Origin: Acidobacteriota bacterium
GTDB lineage: Bacteria; Acidobacteriota; Thermoanaerobaculia; UBA5066; Gp7-AA6
Length of the DNA: 64,000 nt
Reading direction: 5' to 3'
Assembly (NCBI GenBank): GCA_027307335.1
Contig: DAHUXD010000023.1
Location: 62,001-126,000 of the forward strand
The first letter of the stretch is position 1. Each line of letters begins with the position of its first letter. Of this stretch, positions 16,343 through 22,628 are shown one piece after another. Below the pieces are notes generated by a model that was not told the DNA's origin, made no database searches, and was given only the letters and a program-made list of their open reading frames with translations. The translations under genes and the position numbers were made by a program.

Positions 16343-17449
16343 TCAGAACATCTTCACCAGGTCGACCGTGACGCGATTGACCCAGTGGTACGAGTCGAGC
16401 CGTCTCTGCCACATGACGGAGGGCTGCACGTAAACGAGCGGCAGCACCGTGTAGGCGAATCCCGCCCGATATCCCTCGGCCCACGTGTGCCACCACCAGT
16501 CGTCCGTGTTGTAGGCGCCCACGAGCGCGTCCCGGCCGATGTACTGGTAGACGAAGAAGGCGCGCCAGCGGCCGGGCGTGCCGACGCCGCCGACGGTGAC
16601 GGCGGCCTCGTACGCGTTCGGTCCCGTTCCGACGATCCCGAAGTTGTGCACGAAGTCGAGGCTGATGGACGCGGGAACGCCTCCGAGCGGGAACCGGAGC
16701 AGGACCAGATCGTCGAGCAGCTGGAACTTCGACAGGTACGACGGCCTTCCGTCGGGGCCGATCCGGATCCGGTTCTCCCGGTAGTACTGAGGCGCCACGT
16801 CGTCCATGTTCATGTTCCAGAAGGCGGACGACGCCTGCACGGCGAATCGGCTCTCGTCCCCCCAGTTCCACACGACCTGGCCGACGCCGAGGAGCGACTT
16901 GTCCTGGTAGCGCTGCGCGCTGTAGATGCCGGCGGCGGTGAACGTCAGCGTGGACGCCGGGCCGAGCGTGTGGACGTACGAGAGCGCGGCCCCGGGCGTC
17001 GTGACGTCGCGATGGTCCCACATCATCTCGCTCGCGACGACCGGGATCCCGAATGCGCCGGCCTGGAACTTCCACGCCCCGGGCGTCCACTGGAAGAAGT
17101 ATTCGTCGACGACGGCGCCGCGCGAGACGTAGTTGTCGCCGTAGAGCGCGTTGTCGTAGTTCGGCTCCGTGCCGTAGTCGAAGACGGCCCGCACGCCGAA
17201 CTTCACGGTGGGGGAAACGAGGAAGTCGAGCTCGGGCCGGAGCTCGAAGCGGCCGCGGCTGATGATCGACGTGTAATAGGTGTAGTCCTCGAGATGGTTG
17301 ATGTTGTCGTAGCGCGCGAGGAAGTCCCACTGGAAGGCGAGGTGCGGACGGGCGGATTCCTCGAAGTACTGCGGCGCGGCGTCCTGGGCGCCGGCGATCG
17401 CCCGAACGGCCAGAAGGAGCAGACTCGCCGTCAGCGATCGCGCCGTCAA
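16343..17449 (-). CDS. Putative outer-membrane beta-barrel protein
   Basis: A 368-residue protein starting at a TTG that overlaps the kinase stop (TTGA). This start gives a good signal peptide (LTARSLTASLLLLAV, cleavage near AGAQD). The mature part is rich in alternating aromatic/polar strands (RYDNINHLEDYTYYTSI, FELRPELDFLV) and ends in VDLVKMF with a terminal Phe, the usual signal for outer-membrane assembly. I do not recognise the exact family. Translational coupling to the kinase suggests that the kinase and this porin-like protein work in one pathway. Confidence 0.75.
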   Translation of the reverse strand: MTARSLTASLLLLAVRAIAGAQDAAPQYFEESARPHLAFQWDFLARYDNINHLEDYTYYTSIISRGRFELRPELDFLVSPTVKFGVRAVFDYGTEPNYDNALYGDNYVSRGAVVDEYFFQWTPGAWKFQAGAFGIPVVASEMMWDHRDVTTPGAALSYVHTLGPASTLTFTAAGIYSAQRYQDKSLLGVGQVVWNWGDESRFAVQASSAFWNMNMDDVAPQYYRENRIRIGPDGRPSYLSKFQLLDDLVLLRFPLGGVPASISLDFVHNFGIVGTGPNAYEAAVTVGGVGTPGRWRAFFVYQYIGRDALVGAYNTDDWWWHTWAEGYRAGFAYTVLPLVYVQPSVMWQRRLDSYHWVNRVTVDLVKMF

Positions 17450-19569
17450 GCCGTCACCCGCGTCAGCGCCTCGTACAGGTCGTTGACGCTCTGGTACCGC
17501 TCCTTCGGGTCCTTCTGCATGCACTTGAGGATGATCTGCGAGACCTTCGGGTCGATCTTCGGGTTCCGCGCCTGCGGCGACGGCGGATTCTCCTGGATGT
17601 GCTTGAGGACGACCGCGAGCGGCGTGTCGCCGTCGAACGGCAGCGTGCCGGTGAAGACCTCGTAGAGCACGACGCCCGTCGAGTAGATGTCCGACCGGAA
17701 GTCGAGCGCAATCCCGCGCGCCTGCTCCGGCGACATGTAGTCGGGCGTGCCGACGACCGTTCCCTCGGCCGTCATGCCGCGCTCCTCCTGGAGGCGGGCG
17801 ATGCCGAAGTCCATGATCTTCAGGCCGCCGGCGGCCTCGATGATGATGTTCTGCGGCTTGATGTCGCGGTGGATGACGCCGACCTCGTGGGCGGCGGCGA
17901 GACCCGCGCAGAGCTGCTTGGCGATGCGCAGCGCCACGGGGGTCGGCAGGATGTCGCTCGCCTCGATCAGCTGCTTGAGCGTCAGGCCGCGCACGAACTC
18001 CATCGAGAGATAGCGGAAGCCGCCCGACTCGCCGAGGTCGTGGGTCCGGAGAATGTTCGGGTGCGTGATCCGCCGAGCGAGCCGGATCTCCTGCTTGAAG
18101 CGATCGAGCAGGCCGGGGTCGGCCGAGAGGGCCTCGACGCGCAGGGTCTTGATCGCCACCGCGTCGTCGAGGTCGCGGTCGTGCGCGCGGTAGACGACGC
18201 CCATCCCGCCGCGGCCGAGCACGCCCTGGATGTCGTAGCGGCCCGCGAACACCTCGCCGACCCGCGGCTCGCCGCCGGCCGCCGCCGCCACGACGCCGGA
18301 CATCGCCACGGTCTGCTCGTCGCTGCCCATCTTCGCGTTGAGCGAGGCGACGTATTGCTCGAGCGCGGCCTTCTCCTTCAGCTCCTCGAGCATCGCGCGG
18401 AACGAGCGCGCGAGGATGCCGATCTCGTCCTTTGCGTCGAGCGGCAGCTCCGGCGTCTCGAGGTTCCCGACGCGGACCTGCTCGGTGGCCGCGACGAGGC
18501 GCTCGACCGGTCCGGTGATCCGCCGCGCGAGGAAGAACGACAGGACGAACGCGGCGACGAGCGCCACGAGGCCGACGAGCACCTGCGTGTTCTGGATCTG
18601 CCGGAACGCCGCGAGCTCCCGCTCGCGGCTCCGGAGCGCCACGGCGGCGCCGACGAGCTGGTCGGACGACGAGCGGATCGGGAGGAGATAGGCGAGGTAC
18701 GTCTCGCCGCCGACGTCGAGCGCGAGCGGGCCGATCGTCTTGCCCTCCCGCAGAACGGCCTGCACGAGGTCGTCGCGGCGTTCGATCGCCGACAGCGCGG
18801 CCGCGCCGAGCGGGCCCATCGTGGACGCCGCGAGGGCGGCCTTGGCCGGGGCGCCCGGCTTGCCCGCGTCCGCCAGGAACACGACCTGGGTGTTCAGGAG
18901 CTGCTCGAGGTTGCGCGCGACCTCGTCGTCGATCTGGAAGCCCGCCGCGATCGCGCCGACCAGGCGGGAGCCGCCCTCGAGCACCGGCGCCGCGACGACG
19001 TCGTACAGCTTGCCGCCCGAGAGCCATATGCCCTCCGTCGGCTCGCCCTGCAACGCGCCGGCGATCGTCGGCACGCCCGCGAGGTCGGCGGCGTAGGGGA
19101 GCGGCCGGTCGGTCCGCGCGAGCGCCTGACCCTTCGAGTCCGTCGCGATCAGGAAGTCCGCGCGCGCGCTCGACGCCTGCTCGCGCTTCAGAGTGTCGAA
19201 GACCGTCGCCGCGTCGGGCTTTCCGGTCTCGGGCACGAGCGTCGTCATCAGCGAGATCGTCCCGGCGCTGTTCACGACGACGGCGAGCGAGCGCTGGAGC
19301 TCGGCGTAGCGGTTCTGCTGGAACGACTCCCACGCGGGGCCGGACTTCTTGAGGTCCTCCGCGATCTTCGCGTCCGCGACGGCGCGCGAGCGAACGGCCG
19401 AGACCGCCACCGCGCCGCCCACGGCGATGAGGATCAGGAGCGCCGCCGTCGCGAAGATCTTGAGCGTCAGCGAGAAGCGGGGCGGATCGGGCGGAGGAAG
19501 CCGGAGCCCCTTGAGCACCGGCCCGCTCGCGGTCAGTCCGGCGGTCGACGGCGCCTCAGTAACGCTCAT
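17446..19569 (-). CDS. Transmembrane Ser/Thr protein kinase with CACHE-like sensor and HAMP
   Basis: A 707-residue receptor kinase. In order: a Pro-rich cytoplasmic start, a membrane helix at about 38-58, a periplasmic CACHE-like sensor at about 60-325, a second helix at about 327-348, HAMP at about 349-402, a short coil and a Hanks-type kinase domain from about 445. The kinase has the glycine loop GRGGMG, the ATP-binding Lys (about K474 in VAIKTL), the catalytic HRDIKPQN (Asp about 569) and DFG (about 587-589), so it looks active. A CACHE-HAMP input is more usual for histidine kinases or chemoreceptors. It overlaps both neighbours, so the three genes form one translational unit. Confidence 0.92.
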   Translation of the reverse strand: MSVTEAPSTAGLTASGPVLKGLRLPPPDPPRFSLTLKIFATAALLILIAVGGAVAVSAVRSRAVADAKIAEDLKKSGPAWESFQQNRYAELQRSLAVVVNSAGTISLMTTLVPETGKPDAATVFDTLKREQASSARADFLIATDSKGQALARTDRPLPYAADLAGVPTIAGALQGEPTEGIWLSGGKLYDVVAAPVLEGGSRLVGAIAAGFQIDDEVARNLEQLLNTQVVFLADAGKPGAPAKAALAASTMGPLGAAALSAIERRDDLVQAVLREGKTIGPLALDVGGETYLAYLLPIRSSSDQLVGAAVALRSRERELAAFRQIQNTQVLVGLVALVAAFVLSFFLARRITGPVERLVAATEQVRVGNLETPELPLDAKDEIGILARSFRAMLEELKEKAALEQYVASLNAKMGSDEQTVAMSGVVAAAAGGEPRVGEVFAGRYDIQGVLGRGGMGVVYRAHDRDLDDAVAIKTLRVEALSADPGLLDRFKQEIRLARRITHPNILRTHDLGESGGFRYLSMEFVRGLTLKQLIEASDILPTPVALRIAKQLCAGLAAAHEVGVIHRDIKPQNIIIEAAGGLKIMDFGIARLQEERGMTAEGTVVGTPDYMSPEQARGIALDFRSDIYSTGVVLYEVFTGTLPFDGDTPLAVVLKHIQENPPSPQARNPKIDPKVSQIILKCMQKDPKERYQSVNDLYEALTRVTA

Positions 19570-20227: not shown

Positions 20228-20328
20228 GGACTCGGAATCCTAGCAGCCCGCCTCGCGGGCTGACCGACATGAGAGGGATGTCGCGGTCGCGTCACCGTCC
20301 AGTATCATCGCGCCAACGCGGAGGAGCC

Positions 20329-20544
20329 ATGAGCGAGAAGCGGGTCGAGATCTTCGGAAAGGACACCTGACCCCACACGACCGCGGCCCGTGAGGACTAC
20401 GCGAAGCGCCAGTACTCGGTTCGATACCTCGACGTCAAACACGACAAGAAGGAGCTCGAACGGATGATCGAGCTCTCCGGCGGCCGCCAGGTGCCCGTCA
20501 TCCTCGAGAACGGGCGGGTCACCATCGGATTCGGGGGCACCTGA
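20329..20544 (+). CDS. Glutaredoxin-like selenoprotein with in-frame UGA (Sec14)
   Basis: The frame from ATG 20329 (Shine-Dalgarno GGAGGAG just upstream) reads through a TGA at 20368-20370 to a second TGA at 20542. If the first is selenocysteine the product has 71 residues: VEIFGKDT-U-PHT at the N-terminus, the cis-proline stretch QVPVILENG and the end IGFGGT. These are the thioredoxin-fold glutaredoxin landmarks, and U14 falls where the active-site Cys of CPxT/CPxC should be. It resembles the small 'Uxx-star' glutaredoxin-like (seleno)protein family. A hairpin suited to a bacterial SECIS element lies 12-33 bases after the UGA. It should be a thiol/selenol oxidoreductase in the cytoplasm. SelA/B/C/D would have to be encoded elsewhere. 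Confidence 0.85.
20382..20403 (+). promoter_or_regulatory. Candidate bacterial SECIS hairpin
   Basis: CGCG (20382-20385) pairs with CGCG (20400-20403). G20386 pairs with C20397, and CC (20388-20389) with GG (20394-20395), closing a GUGA loop at 20390-20393; there is one mismatch and a two-base bulge. The loop begins with G about 20 bases after the UGA, which agrees with the known bacterial SECIS rule (a small apical loop with an early G, about 16-37 bases downstream). The fold was made by eye. Confidence 0.65.
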
Positions 20545-20554
20545 GGAGTCTGAG

Positions 20555-20571
20555 GCGCCCCGTCGGGGCGC
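20555..20571. terminator. Hairpin after the selenoprotein gene, possible terminator
   Basis: GCGCCCC-GTC-GGGGCGC forms a perfect 7-bp stem ten bases after the stop. There is no clear T-tract; instead TATAAT at 20575-20580 follows and may be the -10 box of the OPT transporter gene. Confidence 0.45.
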
Positions 20572-20618
20572 ACATATAATCCCCCGGCCCAATAGCCTGA
20601 ATTTCGAGCGGAGGTCGC

Positions 20619-22628
20619 ATGGCGCATGAAGCCGCCTCGTCCGGGTCCGAGTTCCAGCCCTACGTTTCGCCCGGACGCGAGGACGTTCCCGAGTTCACGG
20701 CCAAGGCGATCCTCCTCGGCATCTTCTTCGGCGTCCTCTTCGGCGCCGCCACGGTCTACCTGGCGCTGCGCGCCGGCCTGACGGTCTCCGCGTCGGTGCC
20801 CATCGCGGTGCTCGCGATCGCGGTCTTCAAGAAGCTCGGCAAGTCCACCATCCTCGAAAACAACATGGTGCAGACGATCGGCTCCGCGGGCGAGTCGGTG
20901 GCGGCCGGCGTCGTGTTCACGATGCCGGCGCTGCTCTTCCTGACCGACGGCGCCAACTACTTCAAGTACGTGACGATCTTCGTGCTCTCGGCGGTCGGCG
21001 GCACGCTCGGCGTCCTGTTCATGATTCCGCTGCGGCGCGCGCTCATCGTCAAGGAGCACGGCAACCTCCGCTACCCGGAGGGCGTGGCCTGCGCCGACGT
21101 GCTCATCGCCGGCGAGAAGGGCGGCGACCTGGCGCGCATGGTGTTCAAGGGCGTCGGCGCCGCGATGCTCTACAAGTTCCTCTACGGCATCCTCGGGCTC
21201 TGGAACGAGACCGCGACCTGGTTCAAGACCGGCCGGGACGGCAAGATCCCGGACGCGACGCTGAACTGCGACGTCACGCCCGAGTACCTCGGGCTCGGCT
21301 ACATCATCGGGCCGCGCATCGCGGGCGAGCTCGCGTCGGGCGGCGTCCTTTCGTGGCTCGCGCTGATCCCGCTCATCTCGATCTTCGTCGCCGAGGGCCG
21401 CATCGTCCAGGACCTGAAGAACCTCGGGTTCACCGACGCGTGGATGGCGAGCCACTCGCACGCCGAGTGGATCTACCGCGCGTACGTGCGCTACATCGGC
21501 GCGGGCGCCGTGGCGTGCGCGGGCGTGATGACGCTGATCAAGACACTGCCGACGATCGTCTCCGCGTTCCGCGAGTCGGTGAAGTCATTCGGCAAGGGCG
21601 GCAAGGCGAACGAGGCGGTCCGCACGGAGCGGGACCTCGGCATGGGCCTCGTCGTCGTCGGCTCGGTCGTTCTGGCGCTCCTCATCACGGTGCTGCCGAA
21701 CTTCCCGCACGGGCCGTTCCCGGGCTCGCTGATGATGGGCCTGCTCGTCGTCGTGTTCGGCTTCTTCTTCGTGACGGTGTCGTCGCGCATCGTCGGCATC
21801 ATCGGCACGTCCTCGAACCCGATCTCGGGCATGACGATCGCGACGATCATGGCGACCTGCGTCGTCTTCGTCGCCCTCGGCCGCACCGGCGACGTCTACC
21901 AGTCGGTGGCGCTCTGCGTCGGCGCGATCGTCTGCGTCGCCGCCGCCAACGCCGGCGCGACGTCGCAGGACCTGAAGACGGGCTACCTCGTGGGCGCGAC
22001 GCCTCGCCGCCAGCAGATCGGCTTCATCATCGGGGTGCTGACGTCGACGCTCGTCATCGGCGGCACGCTCTTCCTCCTCGACAAGACGTACGCGATGGGC
22101 GAGGCGCACGGCATCGGCGGACCGAAGCTCGCCGCGCCGCAGGCGACGCTGATGGCGACGATCATCAAGGGACTGCTCGCGAACAACCTGCCGTGGGCGC
22201 CGGTGCTCGTCGGTGTCGCGATGGCGTTCATGGCGCAGATGGCCGGCGCGCACGCGCTCTCGTGGGCCGTCGGCGCGTACCTGCCGCTGTCGACCACGTT
22301 TCCGATCTGGATCGGCGGCATGATGAAAGCGCTCGCCGACAAGGTCACCCATCGGAAGGGCGAGGAGAGCGAGCTGTCGTCCGGAATGCTCTACTCGACG
22401 GGCCTCGTCGCGGGCGGTTCGCTCGGGGGCGTCCTCATTGCGCTCGTGGCGTTCATCGGCGACTCGGTGCTCCACATGGAGAATCCGACGCTGATCGAGC
22501 GGCTCGACCTCGGACAGAGGTTCTATCCGGACATCAAGAACGGGTTGGCCGGCAACGTGATCTGCGCGCTCGTGTTCGCGTTCCTGTGCTGGCTCCTGGT
22601 CGCGAACGCCCGGAAGAAGCTGGAATAG
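20619..22628 (+). CDS. OPT family oligopeptide/metal-chelate transporter
   Basis: A 669-residue inner-membrane protein with about 14-16 hydrophobic segments. It starts with the family's [18 protein letters not shown] segment and contains the conserved [18 protein letters not shown] motif and the RYPEGVACA motif, both typical of bacterial OPT proteins. The family imports small peptides, or iron chelates in the YSL branch, with protons. A good Shine-Dalgarno (GGAGGT) precedes the ATG. It appears monocistronic. Confidence 0.93.

Follow-up and report, generated by a model that had tools for sequence, protein, structure and literature searches.

How is a short gene to be read when UGA occurs in its frame three times within 75 codons, and what kind of protein would result? 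The question is raised by a locus in the window (the whole 64,000-nucleotide stretch of DNA analysed here), where in-frame UGA stands at codons 14, 72 and 75 counted from ATG 20329. Read to codon 75 with UGA as selenocysteine (Sec), the product has 74 residues, MSEKRVEIFGKDT-U-PHTTAAREDYAKRQYSVRYLDVKHDKKELERMIELSGGRQVPVILENGRVTIGFGGT-U-GV, before the third UGA; the N-terminal piece MSEKRVEIFGKDT precedes U-PHT and the C-terminal end is GFGGT-U-GV-stop [Table 1]. Judging from sequence comparison, UGA14 and UGA72 are almost certainly sense codons and UGA75 the stop of a double-Sec gene, in which UGA would be used twice for Sec and a third time for termination within one tiny gene. We regard the gene as real; standard gene calling would overlook it or would truncate it at either UGA.

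The preliminary description of this locus had pointed out a strong Shine-Dalgarno site, a TGA exactly at the active-site Cys of a glutaredoxin, and the downstream segments QVPVILENG and IGFGGT. All of these are present in the sequence, and the Pfam glutaredoxin model PF00462 matches the product with an E value of 7e-8 when residue 14 is given as C; this model has no second match elsewhere in the window's genome. The same description had counted one TGA only and placed the end of the gene at 20544, whereas 20542-20544 is the second Sec TGA and the gene ends at TGA 20551-20553. Its identification of a glutaredoxin-like selenoprotein is supported, with two Sec residues in place of one.

Table 1. 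Features of the locus in the window, and Sec-related genes on other contigs (C) of the same genome.
Feature	Position	Strand	Evidence or remark
Shine-Dalgarno GGAGG	20320..20324	+	4 nt before ATG 20329; read from sequence
UXX-star family 1 gene, CDS	20329..20553	+	74 codons plus stop; NF041114 and alignment A1 (47 members)
UGA codon 14, predicted Sec (U-P-H-T active site)	20368..20370	+	UGA in 47/50 members, TGC/TGT in 3/50
UGA codon 72, predicted Sec (C-terminal U-G-V-stop)	20542..20544	+	UGA in 49/50 members; TAG/TAA three codons later in 14
UGA codon 75, predicted true stop	20551..20553	+	column across 50 members: TGA 36, TAG 8, TAA 6
Candidate SECIS for Sec14	20382..20403	+	CGCG/CGCG stem, inner CC/GG; apical loop GUGA from 19 nt after UGA
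Candidate SECIS for Sec72, past stop codon	20555..20571	+	GCGCCCC-GUC-GGGGCGC; loop from 17 nt after UGA
OPT-family oligopeptide transporter, next gene downstream	20619..22628	+	PF03169, E 2e-85
tRNA-Sec	C28:49939-50034		Rfam RF01852, 66.5 bits; 96 nt, UCA anticodon
Formate dehydrogenase alpha gene with UGA (L123)	C44:5290-7149	-	
Formate dehydrogenase alpha gene with UGA (L124)	C22:38435-39202	-	
Formate dehydrogenase alpha gene with UGA (L125)	C33:111581-112348	+	

The 74-residue product matched NF041114, 'UXX-star selenoprotein family 1', with 113.1 bits (E 5.3e-33) over model positions 1-70 of 70, the curated cut-off of this model being 72 bits. When the product was cut at the second UGA (71 residues), the score was 103.9 bits and the match ended at model position 67, so that the last three residues account for the rise to 113.1 bits and for the match reaching 70/70. 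NF041114 is covered in full only when both UGAs are read through, and the protein is therefore predicted to have two selenocysteines. The window gene also has the U-x-x-stop end (UGA 20542, Gly, Val, stop 20551) and UPHT at codons 14-17. A 2026 review lists NF041114 as 'Distant Grx-like protein 1 (UXX-star selenoprotein family 1)', with UxxT and two Sec, and credits it to the 2008 GOS survey (PMC13188914). Both the family and its pair of Sec residues are thus on record already, and the window gene is a well-supported new member.

We then examined the distribution of the family and the conservation of its codons. When 396 genomes of the window's phylum were searched, 43 had a match above the NF041114 cut-off, nearly all of these matches holding two TGAs, and further members come from Syntrophaceae and another deltaproteobacterium. 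The family is carried by about one tenth of the sampled genomes of the phylum, and the window's lineage joins the carriers of double-Sec UXX-star proteins. Codons were counted over the 50 collected members for which both ends were available (the window and 49 other loci). Frame, protein sequence and, almost always, both special codons are common to the window and these 49 other loci, and for this reason the arrangement is far from what chance would give. Invariant columns of alignment A1 include G10, K11, P15, T17, A20, R21, V55, P56 and G67, and position 14 is Sec or Cys without exception; the homologues with Cys or Sec at this position that the preliminary description had proposed to look for were thereby found. 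Between the two UGAs, dN/dS is ∼0.34-0.40 for the window against its three nearest loci and 0.08-0.16 for several close pairs of members, and purifying selection is evidently acting on this stretch. A point mutation that disrupted a glutaredoxin gene of the Cys type, or a sequencing error, could be imagined from a TGA that lies one base from TGC/TGT in a draft assembly of 65 contigs, but it is practically ruled out by TGAs shared among independent genomes, both being present in nearly all homologues from many families of the phylum and from Syntrophaceae, by the dN/dS below 1 downstream and by the complete Sec machinery.

A 71-residue glutaredoxin-like protein with Sec14 alone, ending at UGA 20542, would agree with the in-frame UGA at that place and with the match that the shorter form still makes to NF041114 (103.9 bits). 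It is nevertheless very improbable: UGA stands at codon 72 in 49 of the 50 members and is always followed by two residues more and then a stop, a hairpin lies at SECIS distance after codon 72, and the last three residues add to the family score. Fourteen of the 50 members use TAG or TAA as the stop at codon 75, and the protein therefore ends at 75 and not at codon 72. The only member departing from UGA at codon 72 has Gly (GGA); it is L055 (G001:C211:17734-17955), a second copy in genome G001 in which Sec14 is kept, and Sec72 is apparently dispensable in some copies such as this paralogue. At residue 14, the three members with a Cys codon are L074, L078 and L079, and one more member, L097, also has Cys there; all four keep the C-terminal UGA, the active-site Sec having changed to Cys or the reverse.

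The double-Sec reading was next considered with respect to SECIS-type hairpins. One base separates the stop codon from the hairpin after Sec72, whose folding energy is -15.1 kcal/mol; the stretch 20551-20580 gave a z score of -3.0, which was weaker in longer stretches. When the 3' hairpins were aligned with MAFFT, their stems fell out of register, the distances being variable, and the alignment was replaced by a stem search with the loop placed 14-24 nt past UGA; as such a search selects for pairing, shuffled sequences served as the control. Across 49 members, the best stem after UGA72 had a mean length of 6.8 bp, the mean in dinucleotide shuffles being 3.9 (200 shuffled sets, the highest reaching 4.6). 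The stem sequences differ between members yet pair, every stem position being occupied by several kinds of base pair, and the loops are mostly GGUC, GUC, GGC, GGU or GUU. The feature expected of a bacterial SECIS, a suitably spaced hairpin whose apical loop contains G, was thus found after Sec72, strongly in the window and throughout the family. A scan of the gene region with Rfam found no named RNA element.

The hairpin after Sec14 is a candidate that draws its support from the family and is weak in the window's own sequence, where the minimum-free-energy fold of 20368-20410 was not better than shuffles. Among the Sec members, the Arg codon at +7 after Sec14, which supplies the GU of the loop, is CGT in 35 of 47, while CGT makes up 7% of the Arg codons elsewhere in the same family genes and 6% in nine window genes (Fisher 2e-21, an upper limit on the significance as related sequences are not independent); none of the three Cys14 members has CGT at this codon. 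Stems after UGA14 were also longer than in shuffled sequences (4.7 vs 3.2), which was not so at two control offsets.

The bacterial selenoprotein gene set is complete in the window's genome, with SelA on contig C29, SelB on C44 and SelD on C22 in addition to tRNA-Sec, bearing out the working Sec system that had been predicted from the locus alone. Across the phylum, selA was found in 39 of the 43 genomes bearing the family versus 213 of the 353 others (Fisher 4e-5); the four family-bearing genomes without a selA match are all drafts, and all four have selB. Three formate dehydrogenase alpha genes of the window's genome have UGA at sites canonical for Sec (U-HAPSV, U-HIPTV and U-HGPTV), and they carry SECIS-like GGUCU/AGUCU loops at a spacing after UGA similar to that in the UXX-star gene.

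We propose that each Sec UGA would be recoded by SelB with Sec-tRNA via a hairpin of its own, UGA14 via the one within the coding sequence and UGA72 via the one past the stop codon. UGA75 would terminate, presumably for want of a loop at the proper spacing downstream, as it sits at the foot of the second hairpin and not ∼17-19 nt before a loop. With the Sec72 codon, the stop UGA and the hairpin beyond the stop all within 30 nt, the locus is a compact natural test of Sec-UGA versus stop-UGA.

To predict a possible role for the protein, we considered its fold and motif. An AlphaFold2 model built from alignment A1 with Cys for Sec (pLDDT 93) has the order beta-alpha-beta-alpha-beta-beta, and its nearest solved folds are glutaredoxins; the model predicts a glutaredoxin fold that lacks the C-terminal helix and breaks off at the expected start of the third helix. 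Glutaredoxin 3 and NrdH keep a helix after the last strand. Sec14, in the motif U-x-x-T, would give a monothiol-type active site where helix 1 begins, and Sec72 would occupy the point at which ordinary glutaredoxins enter their third helix. Together they may form a two-selenol site, serving thiol/disulfide-type exchange without glutathione or the binding of soft metals or organometals. The glutathione synthetase ATP-grasp domain PF02955, the one Pfam domain searched for this purpose, was not found in the window's genome (96.5% complete), while the identical search finds glutathione synthetase in E. coli.

A monothiol glutaredoxin of the classical, glutathione-dependent kind, with Sec just speeding deglutathionylation, would share the glutaredoxin fold, the U-P-H-T site and the V-P cis-proline segment, and glutathione may be imported by the neighbouring OPT transporter or come from other enzymes. 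We consider such a glutaredoxin unlikely in a genome without the glutathione synthetase ATP-grasp domain and for a protein in which the third helix of glutaredoxins is missing and Sec stands in its place. The absent synthetase domain and the fold without a third helix therefore favour a glutathione-independent two-selenol site. On fold and motif, a glutathione-free two-selenol function in redox exchange or soft-metal binding has at best an even chance of being correct; metal binding has been suggested for the Sec residues of UXX-star proteins (PMC13188914). More tentatively still, Sec72 may replace the glutathione-binding end and pair with Sec14 as a diselenide or a two-selenolate metal site, with hairpin spacing alone setting Sec, Sec and stop. 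If so, bacteria without glutathione synthesis would possess a glutathione-free 'glutaredoxin', and inside 75 codons of one short mRNA a single cell would take UGA twice for Sec and once for stop.

No function was read from the gene neighbourhood, the OPT link being confined to the window's order. Adjacency of UXX-star and OPT genes was seen at six loci in five genomes of that order (the window, G001 twice, G002, G004 and G006); it is not kept outside the order, other lineages showing nothing consistent beside the family gene. In Syntrophaceae, the neighbours are a Crp-like protein and a DegP-like protease, identified by reading the sequences. At most, the OPT neighbour hints at peptide or thiol uptake. 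Of the two UXX-star/OPT pairs in G001, the one with L055 has the OPT closer to the window's (88% vs 76%). A TATAAT hexamer lies at 20574-20579, just past the 3' hairpin and with the start codon of OPT ∼40 bases further downstream, and the transporter gene may have its own promoter here; a consensus scan for this promoter found no full sigma-70 site. On the other strand, at 17446-19569 (-), the window encodes a large Ser/Thr protein kinase with a double Cache and HAMP fused to the kinase domain in a receptor-like layout, and this gene is syntenic in relatives.

Among known systems, E. coli glutaredoxin 3 and NrdH (PDB 3grx, 1h75) share the fold of the window protein (TM ∼0.76-0.77 by query length) and its V-P cis-proline segment. 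They differ in having Cys where the window protein has Sec, and in the absence of a C-terminal Sec. The selenoprotein glutaredoxin with UxxC has reportedly been studied in Clostridium oremlandii. This selenoprotein, Grx, has the same fold and likewise carries Sec at the N-terminal active-site position, but with UxxC and one Sec (PMC13188914), in contrast to U-P-H-T and a second, C-terminal Sec in the window protein. With UXX-star family 1 (NF041114), the window gene shares the full-length match, both Sec positions and the C-terminal U-x-x-stop, and it differs by ordinary sequence divergence alone, its UGA stop being the one used by 36 of the 50 members.
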